From contig NZ_PVTX01000006.1 of NCBI RefSeq assembly GCF_003003075.1, positions 124,001-188,000 on the forward strand: 64,000 bases of DNA, read 5' to 3'. This document shows, piece by piece, positions 1 to 8,336 of the stretch. How positions within the stretch are numbered: position 1 is the stretch's first letter; every line of letters begins with the position of its first letter. The notes under the pieces were generated by a model. That model searched no databases, was not told the origin of the DNA, and worked only from the letters and a program-made list of their open reading frames with translations. The position numbers and the translations under genes are program-made. Source of the stretch: Isoptericola halotolerans. GTDB taxonomy: Bacteria > Actinomycetota > Actinomycetes > Actinomycetales > Cellulomonadaceae.

Positions 1-825
1 GGTCCCGCAGGCGCCGACGACCTTCCCCCGTTCGACGGCGCGCGGATCGAGAAGGTGTCCTTCCGGTACCCGGGGTCCGGCACCGAGGCGTTGCAGGACG
101 TGACCATCGAGGTCGGTCGCGGGGAGGTCGTGGCCGTCGTCGGTGAGAACGGGTCCGGCAAGACCACCGCGGCGAAGGTGCTGGCAGGGCTGTACGAGCC
201 GGACGCCGGCGACGTCCTCTGGGGCGAGACGCCCTACGCCAAGCTCTCGCAGGACGATCTGCGCAGCCGGGTGGCGGTCATCTTCCAGGACTTCGTCCGG
301 TACGCCTTCTCGGCCACGGAGAACATCGCCCTGGACCGGGCCGGTATCGACGCGCGCCAGGACCCGGCCGGCCGGGAGGACGTCCGAGCGGCCGCGCGGG
401 CCGCGGACATCGACGGCGCCCTCTCGCGCCTGCCCCACGGGTATGCGACGCGGCTGTCGAGGATGTTCGACGACAGTGCGGACCTCTCGGGGGGGCAGTG
501 GCAGCGGCTCGCGATCGCGCGAGCGTTCTACCGGGACGCGGACCTCGTCATCCTCGACGAACCGTCGGCGGCGCTCGACCCACGGGCCGAGCACGACCTG
601 TTCAGCTCGTTGCGCACGACGCTGCGCGGCCGGTCCGCCCTGTTCATCTCCCACCGCTTCGCCACGGTGCGGGGCGCCGACCGCATCTACGTCATGGACT
701 CGGGCCGGGTGGTCGAGTCGGGGACGCACACCGAGCTGATGGCCCGCCGCGGCCTGTATGCCGAGCTGTTCGAGCTTCAGGCCGGGGCGTACTTCCCCGA
801 CGGCTGGTCCAGCTCGGCACCCTGA
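1..825 (+). CDS. ABC transporter ATP-binding domain, C-terminal part (lasso cluster exporter)
   Basis: The reading frame is open from base 1, so this is the 3' part of a longer gene; a GTG at 55 is internal to the domain. Visible in order are Walker A (GENGSGKTT), a Q-loop (VIFQDF), the signature LSGGQWQRLAIAR, Walker B (LVILDEP) and the H-loop (ISHRF). This is a complete nucleotide-binding domain and its start IEKVSFRYPG is typical of exporters in which a membrane domain precedes the ATPase. It lies next to lasso-peptide genes, so it is probably the LasD-type exporter that secretes the mature peptide (inference). Its last 49 bases overlap the convergent kinase gene. The membrane half lies outside the window, so a fused or separate membrane subunit cannot be distinguished. 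Confidence 0.9.
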   Translation, partial: GPAGADDLPPFDGARIEKVSFRYPGSGTEALQDVTIEVGRGEVVAVVGENGSGKTTAAKVLAGLYEPDAGDVLWGETPYAKLSQDDLRSRVAVIFQDFVRYAFSATENIALDRAGIDARQDPAGREDVRAAARAADIDGALSRLPHGYATRLSRMFDDSADLSGGQWQRLAIARAFYRDADLVILDEPSAALDPRAEHDLFSSLRTTLRGRSALFISHRFATVRGADRIYVMDSGRVVESGTHTELMARRGLYAELFELQAGAYFPDGWSSSAP

Positions 826-1754
826 GCCCGCAGCGCCTCGACGAGCTCAGTCCCGAGGCGCTCGCGGAAGGGCGGTCCCCAGGGCACCCGCGCCGTGAAG
901 ACGGGGACGCTCGCGGCGAGAGCAGAGACCCGGGCGAACTGCTGGGCGGTCACCCGCGGGTCCCGCCACCCGAGCAGCCGGGGGAACTGCATGAGGGCGA
1001 ACGCCGCCGCCCCGCCGCGGACCCGGTCGACACGCAGCTCCTCGCACGTGCGGTCGGGGAGCGGGACGACCAGCGCACCGACCGGACGAGCGTCCGTCGG
1101 CTCACGCCCCGGTGCCAGCAGGTCGCGGCCGTCAGCGCTGCGCCCCCGGCGCGGTGAGTCCGCACCGAACCGCTCGGTGAGGGTGTCCGCGCCCTTGCGC
1201 AGCCGCAGCTCCGTCGCCCCGAGCCGAGCGAGGTGGTCGTCGCCCGCCGGGTCGACGCGGAGCACGTCGTCGGTGACGAGCGCGCCGCCCTCGGCGCAGA
1301 GCAGCGCCGCCATCGTCGACTTGCCCATGCCGGACCGCCCGACGAACCCGACGACGTCGTCCTCGAGCTGCACGGCGCTCGCATGCAGGACCGTGTGCCC
1401 GCGCAGGTAGAGCTGGAACGCCATCTGCGCCCCGGACGCGAGCACGCGCGCCACACCGGAGTCCGCGCCCTCCACCGCGTGCAGCGTGACGTGCTCGAGG
1501 TCGGGTGTGAGCACGAAGTCGCAGGTCCCGTGGAACCGGAGCCGGTAGCCGTCGTCCGACCGGGTCGCCGTGTACCAGGGGCGTTCTGGGCTCGCGTACC
1601 GCAGGATGATCTCACCGGCCGGGTCTTCGTCGGTGTGGCTGCGGTCTGCGCCGCGGCGGAGGCGAACCGTGCCGTCGACCGTCACGGACTCCGGCCGCGA
1701 GGGCATCGGCACGTCGGAGTCGACGGACAGCCCGTACAGCGTGGTCGACGTCAT
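777..1754 (-). CDS. HPr kinase-like protein, probable lasso-peptide Ser kinase
   Basis: A 325-residue protein with a P-loop GRSGMGKST at about residues 139-147 and an acidic TDD at 161-163, the layout of the HprK/PilT-type kinase fold. Homologues in lasso clusters (paeninodin type) phosphorylate the C-terminal Ser of the precursor; that is known from the family. Here the precursor at 3420-3548 does end in Ser, which fits. The ATG start overlaps the stop of the upstream B2 gene (ATGA), so the two are translationally coupled. The 3' end overlaps the convergent ABC gene by 49 bases. The residues after the P-loop region are divergent, so the substrate is inferred from context, not proven. Confidence 0.8.
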   Translation of the reverse strand: MTSTTLYGLSVDSDVPMPSRPESVTVDGTVRLRRGADRSHTDEDPAGEIILRYASPERPWYTATRSDDGYRLRFHGTCDFVLTPDLEHVTLHAVEGADSGVARVLASGAQMAFQLYLRGHTVLHASAVQLEDDVVGFVGRSGMGKSTMAALLCAEGGALVTDDVLRVDPAGDDHLARLGATELRLRKGADTLTERFGADSPRRGRSADGRDLLAPGREPTDARPVGALVVPLPDRTCEELRVDRVRGGAAAFALMQFPRLLGWRDPRVTAQQFARVSALAASVPVFTARVPWGPPFRERLGTELVEALRAQGAELDQPSGKYAPA

Positions 1755-2200
1755 GCGGATCCCCCGGTGGTCTGGGCCTGCTCGAACTCGCGGTACAGCC
1801 AGGCGGCGCCCTCGGGGTCGAGGTCCGTGCCGTCGATCCGCAGCCAGGCGTGGGCCCTGATGTGGCCGCCGTCGTCGCGGCGGACGCCGAGCACGATCTG
1901 GGGGTCGCGAGAACGCAGGCTGTGGCCGAGCACGAGGGCGGTGCGCAGGCATGTCCCGTTCACCCACCGCAGACGCAGCACGCGGCGGTCGATGCGCAGC
2001 CGGCGCAGCTCGCCGGCGGTGAGCCGCGCCGTGTCGAAAGCGGCGCGGGGTGTCGTGCCCGGTGCTCCGCCGAGCCGCAGACCCAGCACGGCGGCGGTCC
2101 GGCGCAGCCCGACCGTGCGCAGGCCCGTCTCGGCCACCAGGTACACGAGCCCGGACCGGGCTGCCCGCAGCAGCCCGCCCACCTGCCGCCGGGGGCTCAT
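1751..2200 (-). CDS. Lasso peptide B2 leader peptidase (transglutaminase-like)
   Basis: A 149-residue protein of the size usual for stand-alone B2 peptidases. The catalytic Cys is seen in WVNGTCLRTALVLG (Cys84), followed by His in GHIRAHAWL (His117) and an Asp in the next strand (IDGTDLD), the Cys-His-Asp set of the family. It should cleave the leader from the precursor after the B1/RRE protein (3748-4008) has bound it. The chosen ATG at 2198-2200 overlaps the cyclase stop (ATGA); a longer frame reaching upstream would run inside the cyclase gene and has no homologous residues. Confidence 0.85.
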   Translation of the reverse strand: MSPRRQVGGLLRAARSGLVYLVAETGLRTVGLRRTAAVLGLRLGGAPGTTPRAAFDTARLTAGELRRLRIDRRVLRLRWVNGTCLRTALVLGHSLRSRDPQIVLGVRRDDGGHIRAHAWLRIDGTDLDPEGAAWLYREFEQAQTTGGSA

Positions 2201-3348
2201 GCCGCGTCCCGGGCGCGCGTGCGGTCCTGGCTCGCCAGCCAGGCGGACTGCAGCAGGAGGCCGGTGGGGCCGGGCGGGCGTTCGCCCAGCCACGCCTTCT
2301 GCAGCTCCTCGGCGTCGACCAGGTCGTGCGGTACGCCGCTGCCGTCCCAGCTCCGTGCGAACTCACGCGTCGCCGCGCCGAGGTAGGCGAGGGTGAAGGT
2401 CGCCTTCGAGGTGCGCGCGAGGACGGCGTCCGGGAGCACGTCGGCGAACACCGCGCGCATGCCCTCCGTCCGCGAGGAGAAGCCGGTCGGGTGCCGGCGG
2501 GCCACGGCGGCGAGGAACGTCGGGTCGAGCAGCGGGTGGGCGACCTCGGCGTGGTGCTCGGCCGCGAGGGCGGAGTAGGTGCGGAAGAACTCGGTGACCG
2601 ACCGACGGCGCGCGACCCAGCGCAGCGAGCCGCCGAACGACAGCGGTTCGGCCAGGTCGTCGGCACCGATCCGCTCGACCAGCTCGTCGTGGGCGGCAGG
2701 TCGGAGCCAGGGGAGCGACATCGGCGCCCGCAGCCGGCGACGGCGGAGAACGGCCGGTGAGACTGCCGTGAGCGCGGAGCGGCGAGGGCTTCCCGGCGCG
2801 AACGGTCGGCGAGCGGTGCGCCGGAGGGCTCGGATCCGACGATCGCCGAAGACCTCGTCGCCACCCTCGCCGGTGAGGACGACCCCGCCGGCACACCGCT
2901 CGAGCAGAGGGCCGCGTGCGTGCATGGTGGCCGGCCAGAGCAGGCCGTGCCGCCGCAGGCTGTCCTGGGCGACCGGGCCGAGCAGGTCGTTCTCCGTGGT
3001 GATGGGGAGCCGCCACCAGTCGTGCAGGCCGAGGTGGTCGACGACGGTCCGCTGCCACTCGGACTCGTCGGCCTCGGCGACCCCGGGATAGACGAACGTC
3101 ACCGGGATCGGGGGCGGGGTGCCGGCCAGCGCGGTGGCGCGGCACGCTGCCGCGAGGACGGCCGAGGAGTCTCGTCCTCCGGAGAAGGTGACGTAGACCT
3201 GCCGGCCGCCGGCACGGTCCGCGATGCGTGACGTCAGGACGTCGAGGGGCGCGGCCGTGGTCCGATGGCCGGGCGACGTGTCGACCAGTCCGGGGAGCCA
3301 CGCCCACGCGGTCTCGCGAGGGGTCGGGCGGTGTACATCGAGGGCCAT
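2197..3348 (-). CDS. Lasso cyclase (asparagine synthetase-like), lacking the N-terminal glutaminase domain
   Basis: A 383-residue protein with the ATP-pyrophosphatase loop SGGRDSS (residues 56-62) and a second conserved segment TGEGGDEVFGDRR (159-171) of the AsnB synthetase domain. In lasso biosynthesis this enzyme adenylates the ring Asp/Glu side chain and forms the isopeptide bond to the core N-terminus. Known lasso cyclases are commonly near 600 residues with a degenerate glutaminase-like N-terminal domain; here the gene starts only 71 bases after the precursor stop, so that domain is absent. An in-frame extension to 4263 exists but overlaps the precursor and the divergent RRE gene, so it is rejected. 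It overlaps the B2 gene by four bases. Confidence 0.85.
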   Translation of the reverse strand: MALDVHRPTPRETAWAWLPGLVDTSPGHRTTAAPLDVLTSRIADRAGGRQVYVTFSGGRDSSAVLAAACRATALAGTPPPIPVTFVYPGVAEADESEWQRTVVDHLGLHDWWRLPITTENDLLGPVAQDSLRRHGLLWPATMHARGPLLERCAGGVVLTGEGGDEVFGDRRIRALRRTARRPFAPGSPRRSALTAVSPAVLRRRRLRAPMSLPWLRPAAHDELVERIGADDLAEPLSFGGSLRWVARRRSVTEFFRTYSALAAEHHAEVAHPLLDPTFLAAVARRHPTGFSSRTEGMRAVFADVLPDAVLARTSKATFTLAYLGAATREFARSWDGSGVPHDLVDAEELQKAWLGERPPGPTGLLLQSAWLASQDRTRARDAA

Positions 3349-3419
3349 GTCGACCTCCGCACGGATCGGCGGCACCCGCGACCGTGCCGCGGGCGCCGCC
3401 GACCGAGTGCTGGGGAGCG

Positions 3420-3548
3420 TCAGGAGACGCCGCCGCCGCCGTGCCTGTCGCCACGGAACAGGTCGCCGTCGTAGTCGATGTCGAACTGCGCCTCGAGCGT
3501 GAGGTCGGCGACCGTGCCGACCTCGCGGATGCTGGGTGCCTCGTACAT
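3420..3548 (-). CDS. Lasso peptide precursor (42 residues)
   Basis: A small gene with a strong ribosome site. Residues 2-17, YEAPSIREVGTVADLT, match the actinobacterial lasso leader pattern YxxPx(L/I)xxxG...T. The residue two after the conserved Thr is Glu19, followed by AQFDIDYDGDLF and a Gly-rich tail ending GGGGVS. If the core starts at Glu19, Asp25 or Asp27 would close a 7- or 9-residue ring; if it starts at Ala20, Asp27 would close an 8-residue ring. The final Ser is a candidate for phosphorylation by the kinase at 777-1754. It is first in an operon with cyclase, B2 and kinase. Boundary and ring are inferred. Confidence 0.85.
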   Translation of the reverse strand: MYEAPSIREVGTVADLTLEAQFDIDYDGDLFRGDRHGGGGVS

Positions 3549-3555
3549 AGAAGTG

Positions 3556-3561
3556 CCTCCT
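3556..3561 (-). promoter_or_regulatory. Ribosome binding site of the lasso precursor
   Basis: The minus strand reads AGGAGG seven bases before the ATG of the precursor, a perfect Shine-Dalgarno match and among the strongest in the window. It identifies the start of this short gene. Confidence 0.8.
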
Positions 3562-3747
3562 GTGTGTTGTGCCGGACCGTTTCAGTATTCCGAGCACGGT
3601 GTGACCGCGGCAGGTGAGGCAGGGGTGAAAAGGCCCGGAGAGCGGGTGAATGCCGTGGCCGCGCGGATGAAATCCACGAACCGGCCGGTGTGGCTCGCCG
3701 TCCGGTGGTTTGATGCCTGCGGACGACCGCGACGATGGGGGAAGACG
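3562..3747. other. Divergent promoter region of the lasso cluster
   Basis: This 186-base gap separates the minus-strand lasso operon from the plus-strand RRE gene. On the minus strand AATACT at 3588-3593 is a possible -10 for the precursor. On the plus strand GGGGGAAG just before 3748 is the RRE ribosome site. No clear operator was seen. The long open frames crossing it are shadows. Confidence 0.4.
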
Positions 3748-4008
3748 ATGCGGCTTCGCGCAGACGGGGTGACCTGGCAGGAGATCGACGGCGAGCTGGT
3801 GCTGCTGGACCTGAACTCGTCGACGTACCTCACCACCAACGCGGCCGGCACTCTGCTCGCCCGGACGCTCGCCGACGCCGACGGTGCCACCGAGGACCAG
3901 CTCGTGGGTGCGCTGGTGCGGGAGTACGGGATCGACGAGTCGGTCGCACGGACCGACACCACGGCCTTTCTCGCCGACCTGCGGCACCGCGGACTCCTGC
4001 ACGACTGA
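3748..4008 (+). CDS. Lasso RRE protein (PqqD-like, B1)
   Basis: An 86-residue protein that reads as a stand-alone PqqD-like RiPP recognition element: a beta hairpin (WQEIDGELVLLDLNSSTYLTTN), then helices with the usual LxxxY and winged-helix spacing (GALVREYGIDESVARTDTTAFLADLRHRGLL). In lasso systems B1 binds the leader and delivers it to the B2 peptidase and the cyclase. It starts at ATG 3748 after GGGGGAAG. Unusually it is divergent from the rest of the cluster, so its level may be set separately. A longer frame starting at 3735 is in another phase and runs into the xylanase; it is not this gene. Confidence 0.85.
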   Translation: MRLRADGVTWQEIDGELVLLDLNSSTYLTTNAAGTLLARTLADADGATEDQLVGALVREYGIDESVARTDTTAFLADLRHRGLLHD

Positions 4009-4195: not shown

Positions 4196-4280
4196 TCCCG
4201 ATGACGGGGCGCGGCGCGCCCTGCCCGGGGCCCCGAGCATCGAGGCCGGCGCCCCGGCCGCACATCGCAAGGGAGCGACG

Positions 4281-7200
4281 ATGAGGCAGAGCATCACCAG
4301 GACGGTCGCGGGGCTCACCGCGGCCGCGCTGGCGGCGAGCGGCGCGGTGGGTGCCGTCGTCGTGGGAGCGTCGACGGCGGCAGCGGACGACGCCGTCATG
4401 CTAGAAAACGATTTCGATTCCACGGTGGACCCGTGGGGCCCCCGCGGCCCCGTCGAGCTGACGATCACCGACGACGCCCGCACCGGCGCCGGAGCCCTCG
4501 CCGTGACCGGACGGACGGGGGAGTGGAACGGCCCCGCGACCGACGTCACCGGCCTCTTCGCCGAGGGCGGCGTGTACCAGGTCGAGGCCTGGGTCAAGCT
4601 GCCCGCCGGGGCCGCGGACGCCACCGACGTCCACGTCACCGTCCAGGAGACGTCCGCCGACGGTGACGCCTACACCTGGGTCGGCGGGGCGGTCACCGCC
4701 ACCGCCGACGAGTGGGTCGAGGTGGGCGGCACGTACACGATGCCCGCCGGCCTCACCGCCGCCCAGCTCTACCTCGAGGCCGCGCCCGTCGGCGACGCCC
4801 ACCCCGACTTCCTCGTGGACGACGTCGTGATCACCGGCCAGCAGGTCGACGCCGGCCTGCCCGACGGGTTCGTCCCCGGCGGGGCGGTGAGCCCCACCAG
4901 CACCCCGGTGTCCGCCGCCCAGTCCGGCAGCACGGGGGGCCCGGTCGCCGCGCTCACCTTCGACGACGGGCCGAACCCGGGCACCACGCCCGCGCTTCTC
5001 GACTTCCTCGCCGCCCACGACCTGCCCGCCACGTTCTGCGTCATCGGGCAGAACATCGAGGCCGACGGCGGCGCGGAGATCCTGCGCCGGATCGTGGCCG
5101 AGGGGCACACCCTGTGTAACCACTCCACCGGCTACGCCGACATGGGCTCGATGACGCCCGAGCAGGCGCAGGCCGACATGATCGCGAACCTCGACATCAT
5201 CCGCGGCGCCCTCGGCGACCCGCAGGCCGAGGTCCCGTTCTGGCGCGCCCCCAACGGGTCCTGGGGTGCCACCCCCGGCGTCGCGGTGAACCTCGGCATG
5301 CAGCCGCTCGCCGTGACGAACACGATCGCCGACTGGGAGACGCAGGACGAGGCCACGCTCACCGAGAACCTCCGCGCCGCCCTGACCGACGGCGAGCTCG
5401 TGCTGGTGCACGACGGCGGTGGTGACCGTTCCGGTTCGCTCGCCGCGGTCGAGACCGTGGTCACCGAACGGCTCGCCGACGGCTGGGAGTTCACTCCGGT
5501 GCAGGGCACGCCCCCGGCGTCCGGCCCCGTGCTGAGCACCGACTTCGAGGACGGCCTCGACGGGTGGGGCCCGCGCACGGGCGACGACACGGACCCGATC
5601 GTGGAGATCACGACGGCGGACGCCGCCTCGGGCGAGGCCGCCGCGCTGGTCACCGGCCGCGACAGCCAGGGTGACGGCATCGGCCGGGACGTCTCGGACG
5701 CGCTCACGCCCGGCGTGCGCTACGAGGTCTCCGCCCAGGTGCGGTTCGCCGCGGGCCAGCAGCCGGACGCCGTCTGGCTCTCGCTCGCCAGCACGGCCGA
5801 CGGTTCGACGTCGTACGCCACGCTGGCGCAGTGGTCCGGCGTGACGGCGGACGGCTGGACCGAGGTCACCGCGACCTTCCAGGCGCCGGCCGGCGAGGAG
5901 CAGTACCTCTACCTGGAGACCGACTACAACGGCACCAACACGAGCGACCTCCTCGTCGACGACGTCGTGGTCTCGGTGCCGGAGCCGGCCGTGGTCCAGG
6001 ACCTCACGCCGATCCAGGAGACCGTGCCGTTCGCGGCCGGGGTGGCGATCGACTCGCGCGAGACCAGCGGCTCCGCCGCCGACCTGCTGCTGCGGCACTT
6101 CAACCAGGTCACCGCCGAGAACCACATGAAACCGGAGGCCTGGTACGACGACGAGGGCACGTTCCGCCCGCACCCCGAGGCGGTCGCGCTCATGGACTTC
6201 GCGGCCGCGAACGATCTCGCGATGTACGGCCACGTGCTGACGTGGCACTCCCAGACGCCGGACTGGTTCTTCACCGACGACGCCGGCGAGCCGCTCACCG
6301 ACTCCGCCGCCGACCAGCAGGTGCTCCGCGACCGCCTGAGGGACCACATCTTCGCGGTCGCCGAGTGGCTCGCCACGTACGGCGAGTTCGGCGCGGACAA
6401 CCCCGTCAACGCGTTCGACGTGGTCAACGAGGTCGTCGCGGACGGCGCCACGGACGACGGCCTGCGCCGCAGCGAGTGGTACCGGATCCTCGGCGAGGAG
6501 TTCATCGACCTGTCCTTCGAGTACGCGGACGAGGCCTTCAACCACACCTACGCGGCCGAGGGCGCCGACCGCCCGGTGCGGCTCTTCATCAACGACTACA
6601 ACACCGAGCAGGGCGGCAAGCAGGACCGTTACGTGGCCCTGGTCGAGCGGATGCTCGAGCGCGGCGTCCCGCTCGACGGCGTGGGTCACCAGTTCCACGT
6701 CTCGCTCGCCATGCCGGTCTCCGCCCTGGAGGTCGCGCTCGAGCGGTTCGAGGACATGCCCGTCACCCAGGCGGTCACCGAGCTCGACGTCACCATCGGC
6801 ACGCCCGAGACACAGGCGAACCTCGTCGAGCAGGGCTACTGGTTCCGGGACGCGTTCCGGATGTTCCGCGACCACGCCGGCTCGCTGCACGCGGCGACGG
6901 TCTGGGGCCTGACGGACGGCCGTTCGTGGCGTGCGGACAACGGTGCGCCGCTCCTCTTCGACGACGCCTACCAGGCCAAGCCGGCGTACCTCGGGGTCGT
7001 CGACGGCGACCTGCCGGCGCAGCAACGCTCGGCGAACGTGTTCGCCGGCGACGTCCCGCTGGACGGATCCGCCACGGCCTCGCCCCAGTGGGAGCGTCTG
7101 CCGCTGCACCAGGTCACCGCGGCCGGCGAGTCCGTCGCCGGGTTCCAGCTGCGCTGGGCCGCCGACCACCTCACCGCGTACGTGTCCGTCACCGACGGTG

Positions 7201-8336
7201 CGGCCGAGGCGAGCGACGCCGTCACGTTCGACCTCGGCGGCACGACCGCCGTCGTCGGCCGCGACGGGACGGTGACGGGCGACGCGACCGCCGAGGTCGT
7301 CGAGACCGACGCCGGGTACGACGTCGTGGCGCACCTGCCGCTCGCCGCCGCCGCGGAGGGCGACACGCTCGCCCTCGACGTCCGGGTGGACGACGGCGGC
7401 ACCTCCGCCGGGTGGAACACCCCGGGCGCGTACGGCACGCTCACCCTCCTGGAGGAGCTGAGCCACGTCGAGGTGGTCGAGGCGGCCGCGGCGCCCACCG
7501 TGGACGGCGACGTCGACGACGTGTGGACCGCGGCGAACGCCGTCACCACCGCGCAGCGCGTCGAGGGGTCGGACGGTGCGGTCGGAACCTTCCGCACCTT
7601 GTGGACCGACGACACGCTGTACGTGCTGGCCGAGGTCGAGGACCCCACCGTGGACGTCAGCGGCTCCGACCCGTGGATCCAGGACTCGGTGGAGGTGTTC
7701 GTCGACGCGGGCAACGCGAAGAACGGCGGCTACCGGGCCGAGGACACGCAGATCCGCGTCAGCGCGGAGAACGAGGTCTCGTTCGGCACGGGAGACGCGG
7801 CCGAGCAGGCGGCTCGCGTGACCTCGGCGGCCTCGCTCACCGAGGACGGCTACCTGGTCGAGCTGTCGGTCGACCTGCTCGACCAGGGCGGCGTGGGCTC
7901 GTTCCACGGCCTGGACCTGCAGGTCAACGACGCCACCGACGGCGCGCGGACCTCGGTGACCACCTGGGCCGACCCGACCGGCACCGGCTACCAGTACACG
8001 AACCGCTGGGGCGTGGCCGAGCTGGTGGCCGCCCCCGCGCCGCCCGCGCCGGACTGGGAGGAGGGCCAGGTCTACACGGCCGGCGACGAGGTGACCCACG
8101 GCGGTGCCCTGTACCGCGCGACGTGGTGGACCACCGAGGAGCCGGGCACCTCGCCCTGGGGCTCGTGGCAGGAGATCGCCACGGCACCGGACGGGACGGC
8201 GGTCTGGACGGCGTCGCGGATCTTCGTCGAGGGCGACGTCGTCGTGCATGAGGGCGACCGCTACGAGGCGCGGTGGTGGACCCGCAACCAGGCCCCGGGC
8301 TCCCAGCACGGCCCCTGGACCCTCCTCGCGAGGTAG
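4281..8336 (+). CDS. Secreted multidomain acetylxylan esterase / GH10 xylanase
   Basis: A 1351-residue secreted enzyme. Domains in order: signal peptide (1-35, cleavage near AAA-DD); a CBM4/9/22-like beta-sandwich (about 40-190); a linker; a NodB/CE4 deacetylase (about 222-404) with TFDDG (Asp228-Asp229), His281, RAPNG (322-326) and LVHD (His377); a second CBM (about 415-565); a GH10 xylanase (about 570-905) with acid/base Glu717 in VVNE and nucleophile Glu834 in TELD; two CBM9-like domains (about 910-1250); and two WW-rich chitin-binding-type repeats (about 1255-1351). It should deacetylate and cut xylan outside the cell. In CE4 the position four after His281 is normally His and here is Tyr285. 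Start ATG 4281 follows AAGGGAG. Confidence 0.93.
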   Translation: MRQSITRTVAGLTAAALAASGAVGAVVVGASTAAADDAVMLENDFDSTVDPWGPRGPVELTITDDARTGAGALAVTGRTGEWNGPATDVTGLFAEGGVYQVEAWVKLPAGAADATDVHVTVQETSADGDAYTWVGGAVTATADEWVEVGGTYTMPAGLTAAQLYLEAAPVGDAHPDFLVDDVVITGQQVDAGLPDGFVPGGAVSPTSTPVSAAQSGSTGGPVAALTFDDGPNPGTTPALLDFLAAHDLPATFCVIGQNIEADGGAEILRRIVAEGHTLCNHSTGYADMGSMTPEQAQADMIANLDIIRGALGDPQAEVPFWRAPNGSWGATPGVAVNLGMQPLAVTNTIADWETQDEATLTENLRAALTDGELVLVHDGGGDRSGSLAAVETVVTERLADGWEFTPVQGTPPASGPVLSTDFEDGLDGWGPRTGDDTDPIVEITTADAASGEAAALVTGRDSQGDGIGRDVSDALTPGVRYEVSAQVRFAAGQQPDAVWLSLASTADGSTSYATLAQWSGVTADGWTEVTATFQAPAGEEQYLYLETDYNGTNTSDLLVDDVVVSVPEPAVVQDLTPIQETVPFAAGVAIDSRETSGSAADLLLRHFNQVTAENHMKPEAWYDDEGTFRPHPEAVALMDFAAANDLAMYGHVLTWHSQTPDWFFTDDAGEPLTDSAADQQVLRDRLRDHIFAVAEWLATYGEFGADNPVNAFDVVNEVVADGATDDGLRRSEWYRILGEEFIDLSFEYADEAFNHTYAAEGADRPVRLFINDYNTEQGGKQDRYVALVERMLERGVPLDGVGHQFHVSLAMPVSALEVALERFEDMPVTQAVTELDVTIGTPETQANLVEQGYWFRDAFRMFRDHAGSLHAATVWGLTDGRSWRADNGAPLLFDDAYQAKPAYLGVVDGDLPAQQRSANVFAGDVPLDGSATASPQWERLPLHQVTAAGESVAGFQLRWAADHLTAYVSVTDGAAEASDAVTFDLGGTTAVVGRDGTVTGDATAEVVETDAGYDVVAHLPLAAAAEGDTLALDVRVDDGGTSAGWNTPGAYGTLTLLEELSHVEVVEAAAAPTVDGDVDDVWTAANAVTTAQRVEGSDGAVGTFRTLWTDDTLYVLAEVEDPTVDVSGSDPWIQDSVEVFVDAGNAKNGGYRAEDTQIRVSAENEVSFGTGDAAEQAARVTSAASLTEDGYLVELSVDLLDQGGVGSFHGLDLQVNDATDGARTSVTTWADPTGTGYQYTNRWGVAELVAAPAPPAPDWEEGQVYTAGDEVTHGGALYRATWWTTEEPGTSPWGSWQEIATAPDGTAVWTASRIFVEGDVVVHEGDRYEARWWTRNQAPGSQHGPWTLLAR
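4404..4415 (+). promoter_or_regulatory. Second CG-centred palindrome inside the xylanase gene
   Basis: GAAAACGATTTC shares the ten bases AACGATTTCG (its last ten including the following G) with the site at 4136-4147. It sits just after the signal-peptide codons. A roadblock operator is possible; chance is not excluded. Confidence 0.3.

Follow-up and report, generated by a model that had tools for sequence, protein, structure and literature searches.

Several described lasso peptide clusters carry an HPrK-like kinase gene. As far as the accessible parts of the reports go, paeninodin is a phosphopeptide end product, the kinases ThcoK and SyanK make polyphosphate, and in pseudomycoidin PsmK makes a phospho-Ser to which PsmN adds one or two hexoses; whether PsmN adds them directly is left open by the reviews (PMC9266682, PMC8498205). 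Within the same limits, kinase-bearing lasso clusters are placed in Firmicutes, Proteobacteria and Bradymonadales, and putative examples are noted for Acidobacteriaceae and Sphingomonadales (PMC8498205, PMC5067487, PMC10368454); for Isoptericola sp. AK164, 'a cluster of Lasso peptide' is named in a paper of 2023 (PMC10425560). Here we describe a cluster from the soil actinobacterium Isoptericola halotolerans, which lies at the start of a 64,000-nucleotide stretch of contig NZ_PVTX01000006.1 (C6:124001-188000 of genome G000; hereafter the window). It is a compact, genuine cluster for a ribosomally synthesised and post-translationally modified peptide (RiPP) and lies where an earlier note, made from the letters alone, had put it. 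Our best reading is a tailored lasso cluster of the paeninodin/pseudomycoidin kind in Actinomycetota; its cyclase is short, and a related cluster seems to have none. The pathway that it encodes probably leads to a lasso peptide bearing a phosphate-based tag at its C-terminus. As far as its accessible text extends, the open-access literature cited above is in line with the earlier suggestion that a product of this sort may not yet be described for the lineage.

The precursor gene (3420-3548, minus strand) encodes 42 amino acids (aa), which read YEAPSIREVGTVADLT. It was recognised by its relatives and by a lasso-type leader of the pattern YxxPxL..G..T (NF033521, 24.5 bits against a cut-off of 19), and its last residue is Ser (codon 3423-3425), just as the earlier note had described it. 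Downstream on the same strand lie the genes for C, a short asparagine-synthetase-type cyclase of 383 aa (2197-3348; PF00733, 63.7 bits), for B2, a transglutaminase-like leader peptidase of 149 aa (1751-2200; NF033537, 46.7 bits against a cut-off of 33; PF13471 also over cut-off), and for K, the HPrK-like kinase of 325 aa (777-1754). B1, a PqqD-type RiPP recognition element (RRE) of 86 aa, is encoded divergently (3748-4008, plus strand; PF05402, 53.3 bits; NF033530, 47.3 bits, under its cut-off of 70). Cyclase, B2 and divergent RRE are all present as claimed, and so is the exporter, an MsbA-like ABC protein of which the window holds only the 3' part (1-825, plus strand); the full 628 aa are encoded at L004:10939-12825, L004 being the adjoining stretch to the left. 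The 3' end of its gene overlaps that of K on the opposite strand by 49 nt. The ATGA coupling proposed for the precursor, C, B2 and K genes was confirmed for C/B2 and B2/K only, since 71 nt separate the precursor stop from the start of C.

K was found in 11 of the 18 genomes of the genus, in 18 of 200 genomes of the family (5 of 25 genera) and in 27 of 396 genomes of the phylum at E <= 1e-10, six of which, the window genome included, matched at E < 1e-50. The matches listed include at least 22 loci from named genomes, among them Cellulosimicrobium arenosum, Luteimicrobium, three Nocardioides, Phytoactinopolyspora, Qaidamihabitans, Prauserella, Actinophytocola and an Acidimicrobiaceae metagenome-assembled genome. 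In comparison with two relatives, the ratio of nonsynonymous to synonymous substitution rates (dN/dS) was 0.18-0.37 for K, C, B2, B1, the nucleotidyltransferase described below and the ABC exporter. The frequency of K in the genus, the recurring neighbour genes in the wider loci and these ratios together argue that the cluster is more than a chance assembly.

The terminal Ser and the kinase occur together. From kinase-bearing loci we listed 31 precursors, each checked against the DNA, of which 30 are distinct (that of G010 equals that of G004 and was counted once); leaving out G566 and G767, whose kinases are divergent, gave a close-clade set of 28. Ser is the last residue in 26 of these, and the remaining two, from G048 and Luteimicrobium (G027), end in Ser-Arg. 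The core of the window precursor contains no Ser or Thr besides the last residue, which holds for 6 of the 28 cores. Seven kinase loci had no recognised precursor (L024, L033 and L037, all on short contigs, and L045, L050, L056 and L058), and the strong kinase matches L062-L066, as well as all weaker ones except G566 (region L150), were left out of the precursor counts. As a control, we took the 64 of 246 class genomes with a B2 match and read 40 regions around B2. Five of them contain K by model (L150, L151, L156, L157 and L158); of the other 35, 19 have a recognised YxxP precursor, L160 has WxxP candidates only, and 15 have no accepted precursor. Not one of the 19 YxxP precursors from kinase-less regions ends in Ser, compared with 26 of 28 from the close clade (Fisher 3e-11, with L160 left out and uncorrected for relatedness). 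The claim of a lasso peptide phosphorylated at its C-terminus is strengthened by this co-occurrence, apart from the contrary case of L160, and by the lack of any other Ser or Thr in the core; its expected mass gain of 80 Da, in contrast, is probably not the end point.

That the kinase gene encodes an HPrK-like enzyme, as the earlier note had it, holds, with a weak match to Pfam Hpr_kinase_C (22 bits, under the gathering score of 33.3). Residues H124, K145, D162 and D163 of K are invariant in an alignment of 14 relatives, and His-Lys-Asp-Asp is the catalytic motif of lasso kinases in the accessible part of the review (PMC9266682). The predicted structure (pLDDT 89.5) suggests a PEPCK/HPrK-like fold: the best matches were PEP carboxykinases (1.2e-8), followed by the HPr kinases 1ko7 (2.8e-5) and 3tqf (4.7e-5), with modest TM-scores. 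A profile search (A1) against the Protein Data Bank (PDB) returned an HPr kinase at 9e-5, mixed with ABC ATPases that score similarly through the P-loop, and phmmer of K against PDB chains gave no significant match. The Lys of an RLRKG stretch is kept in 15 of 18 aligned kinases; the kinases of the two Ser-Arg loci, G048 and G027, have Thr or Pro instead, and the third exception, L025, has Asp. A tblastn search of K and the nucleotidyltransferase against plasmids, aimed at Bacillota kinases, yielded only weak proteobacterial and haloarchaeal matches. One of the latter, on plasmid pHALXA01 of Halopiger xanaduensis (L163), combines a weak K match with nucleotidyltransferase, B2, PqqD, asnB and ABC genes and is a possible archaeal counterpart.

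From these parts we infer a sequence of steps leading to a threaded product. B1 would bind the YxxP leader of the precursor, and K would phosphorylate the C-terminal Ser, probably at the precursor stage, as reported for PadeK. B2 would then remove the 18-residue leader, which ends in Thr (-2) and Leu (-1), and the short C would activate Asp9 and join it to the N-terminal Glu1, giving a 9-residue ring with a 15-residue tail. A PF14907 nucleotidyltransferase would add a hexose or a nucleotide group to the phosphate, and export would fall to the MsbA-like ABC protein. The weak Pfam match of K and several points given below, together with the alternatives, weigh against this pathway.

The step after phosphorylation is the first of these. 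To the left of the window, L004 holds the full exporter gene, a gene for a PF14907 nucleotidyltransferase (107.4 bits) whose end abuts the exporter start, and then mfd, identified by eye and by its sequence matches. Because of this nucleotidyltransferase, a gain of 80 Da is probably not the end point; by analogy with pseudomycoidin, the end product is likely to be heavier, and the enzyme may decorate the phosphate, perhaps with a sugar. Alternatively, a phosphate, single or multiple, could be the end point, with the nucleotidyltransferase idle or acting on another molecule. The paeninodin phosphopeptide and the ThcoK/SyanK polyphosphates fit this, and in the family of linear polyphosphorylated peptides (LPP) a deletion of lppN had no visible effect, according to the accessible part of that report (PMC13381572). 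Moreover, 4 of 27 close-clade loci have no nucleotidyltransferase by model in the stretch searched. The other 23 do have one (four of them weak, 1e-16 to 4e-20), and its position against the exporter gene and its dN/dS of 0.25-0.29 speak against this alternative; we regard phosphate as the end point as unlikely.

A second alternative concerns the topology: C could make a macrocycle without threading, or another amide. Under a rule that sets Thr at position -2, the predicted leader comprises residues 1-18 (3495-3548, minus strand) and the predicted core the 24 residues from Glu1 to Ser24 (3423-3494), in which the acids at the candidate ring positions 7-9 are Asp7 and Asp9. In 22 of 26 precursors accompanied by a short C, residue 8 or 9 of the core is Asp or Glu (residue 9 in 20 of them), against 7.8 on average in shuffled cores (p 5e-5). 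For the window this pattern predicts a Glu1-Asp9 ring, with Asp7 also possible; in G012, a close relative, residue 7 is Asn, which leaves Asp9 under the Glu1 start. Calculated monoisotopic neutral masses for the Glu1 core are 2564.13 when cyclised, 2644.10 with phosphate added and 2806.15 with phosphate plus hexose; a core starting at Ala would have 2435.09 and 2515.06. Residue 1 is Ala in nine of the 26 cores, Gly in nine, Glu in six, and Gln and Leu in one each. A start at Ala2, with Thr at -3, was considered and rejected: it fits the acids comparably (23/26; position 8 acidic in 20/26) but leaves residue 1 widely varied (Q 6, N 4, E 4 and others, versus Ala or Gly in 18/26). For this reason Glu1 is preferred and is the likely, not the certain, core start.

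In four of the 26 cores neither residue 8 nor residue 9 is acidic: G024a has Glu7, and in G016, G005 and G024b no acid follows residue 1 until position 13. Glu is also uncommon as residue 1 of lasso cores. Three precursors with a Cys pair (L022:1793-1972, L023:2827-3012 and L034:3959-4138) have their first acid past residue 1 at position 13 under the same rule, and a core start four residues later would bring an Asp to position 9.

The cyclase itself is unusual. C lacks the N-terminal region of about 200 residues of ordinary lasso cyclases; it matches NF033535 with 12.5 bits against a cut-off of 525, and its Asn_synthase domain is present. The SGGRDSS loop follows after 55 residues. A model built from short cyclases found 27 C proteins, in 25 loci, that likewise lack this region; their SGGxDSS loop comes 51-64 residues into the match, a shortness that is partly by construction, given the make-up of the model. 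The gap between precursor stop and C was 17-191 nt in 24 of 25 measured cases and 552 nt in one, two C proteins being left out. By comparison, the Asn_synthase domain of three kinase-less control cyclases of about 600 aa begins at residue 218-229 of the open frame, and 20 of the 40 control regions, kinase locus L156 among them, have 214-347 open residues before the loop (upper bounds). A close-clade K is accompanied by a short C in L158 and by a long C (581-aa open frame) in L157, so that K can occur without a short C. Structure prediction for C (pLDDT 85.9) gave a fold that matches the asparagine-synthetase-type enzymes TsnB9 (4.7e-8) and human ASNS (1.7e-7). An N-terminal cyclase domain further upstream in frame was rejected: the longest open frame, 688 aa from a GTG at 4263, would cross the precursor and B1 genes and contains no N-terminal Pfam domain; Pfam names no such domain in the three long control cyclases either, hence the rejection rests on length. 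Targeted open-access literature searches found no description of short or truncated lasso cyclases, which does not prove that none exists. One kinase is accompanied by a pair of precursors and a pair of short cyclases in Cellulosimicrobium arenosum (L034:1255-4138), and Prauserella (L053) also has two of each.

Cyclisation by a C without the N-terminal region is putative, and the missing region favours an unthreaded product, as do a sister genus that does without C, the unusual Glu1 and the three precursors without an acid between positions 2 and 12. The leader, B1 and B2 are nevertheless of lasso type, and the acid at position 8 or 9 and the Ala/Gly starts also speak against it; we consider the unthreaded product quite improbable.

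Thirdly, K might act on another residue, or not on the window peptide at all. BsfK and LppK phosphorylate Ser3 of the core in the accessible descriptions, and precursors at several loci with divergent kinases do not end in Ser: L156 (T, V, N), L057 (P) and L059 (N). Those of the divergent-kinase loci L150 and L151 do. In L160 (G639), kinase-less by model, all five minus-strand WxxP candidates end in Ser, so that a terminal Ser is not exclusive to K. A Ser or Thr at core position 3, the target of BsfK and LppK, is absent from the window core, which has Gln3 under the Thr(-2) rule and no Ser or Thr but the last residue; we consider this alternative very improbable. In L160 (94-2734 and 8581-9501) the five candidates share one region with a sulfotransferase (PF00685), and L156 (G698) has three similar precursor candidates (6904-7748) near its divergent kinase and a long Asn-synthase frame.

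Finally, a silent or decaying cluster is scarcely credible: a simple scan, blind to other promoter types, found no sigma-70-like promoter, and K is absent from 7 of the 18 genus genomes, but the frames are intact, the six genes have the dN/dS values given above and relatives occur in several genera. The same scan found no terminator. An AGGAGGC resembling a ribosome-binding site was seen by eye upstream of the precursor (3555-3561, minus strand). The interval between precursor and C contains a strong central hairpin of 19 pairs (3364-3404, minus strand), the folded region 3349-3425 reaching -56.8 kcal/mol (z -6.35; 0 of 200 shuffles equally good); perhaps it sets the ratio of precursor to enzymes. 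On the other side, the cluster adjoins a large secreted protein (window 4281-8336), which by eye resembles a polysaccharide deacetylase fused to a xylanase-type hydrolase; L016, L019 and L025 have a comparable gene close to their clusters.

Relatives without a cyclase bear on what the tag may be for. In G065, of genus g9 in the same family, L036:8271-11611 encodes K, B2, B1, nucleotidyltransferase and exporter. Its precursor begins with a leader of lasso type, and the core (HGRGKG...GGGIS) is free of Asp and Glu, with Ser as the last residue. The short-C profile had no match in the whole genomes of G065, G137 and G025 and one weak match (1e-6) in G147; long-C queries, applied in G065 to L036 and not to the whole genome, matched only an AsnB-like gene. 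This Asn synthase (L036:13907-15886) was rejected as a lasso cyclase: it lies beside a glycosyltransferase-like frame and starts with MCGIAG, whose Cys2 we take to mark the glutamine-using AsnB type. The product of G065 is probably linear. An mfd gene lies near the cluster in the window, in G065 and in 7 more of the 24 loci tested, and the shared position in window and G065 fits a loss of the cyclase in place, although the whole cyclase-less locus was seen in one g9 genome only. L150 (G566) and L151 (G767) carry a divergent kinase, nucleotidyltransferase, B1, B2 and short precursors ending in Gly-Ile repeats plus Ser; no cyclase was detected in their 9.5 kb when the short C and 8 long C proteins served as tblastn queries.

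Taken together, these loci allow a tentative picture, which we think possible rather than probable, of an actinobacterial class in which a single-domain minimal cyclase closes Glu1-Asp9 and the C-terminal Ser carries a phosphate-linked sugar; the sister genus, at the same mfd-adjacent locus, would have lost the cyclase and would now produce a linear peptide that is tagged at its C-terminus and freed by a B2 of lasso type. If so, the tag rather than the knot would be the conserved functional part. The cluster would extend C-terminal tagging of lasso peptides to Actinomycetota. A working 383-aa cyclase would mean that lasso cyclases can do without their N-terminal region and would offer a compact engineering scaffold. 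The 28 natural substrate sequences, including the two Ser-Arg exceptions, would be a resource for kinase specificity, and the cyclase-less sister cluster makes the purpose of the tags directly testable.

Compared with known systems, the window cluster shares the YxxP leader, B1, B2 and an Asn-synthase-type C with kinase-less actinobacterial lasso clusters, which differ in having no K by model, a C of about 600 aa (three scanned) and no Ser-ending precursor among the 19 recognised ones of YxxP type. With LPP clusters, as far as their description is accessible (PMC13381572), it has in common the RRE, HprK-like kinase, NTP transferase and MsbA-like exporter; LPP clusters, however, use a signal-peptidase-like LppS and Ser3, where the window has B2 and, as predicted target, the terminal Ser behind a leader of lasso type, and their leader motif YxxPxVLxHQxIxFETxxS is by eye not matched by the window precursor. 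The cyclase-less L036 cluster is the most LPP-like, but with B2 and a lasso leader. The paeninodin (pade), ThcoK and SyanK clusters, by the accessible descriptions, resemble it in kinase, conserved C-terminal Ser and His-Lys-Asp-Asp; the gene order is A-C-B2-K with divergent B1 here and C-A-K-B1-B2-D in firmicutes (PMC5067487), and, unlike in those clusters, a nucleotidyltransferase gene stands beside the exporter. Pseudomycoidin (psm) of Bacillus pseudomycoides, likewise compared by partial description only, has the lasso leader, split B1/B2, C, HPrK-like kinase (PsmK), nucleotidyltransferase (PsmN) and C-terminal Ser (PMC9266682, PMC8498205), from which the window cluster differs in being actinobacterial and in its divergent B1, short C and predicted Glu1.

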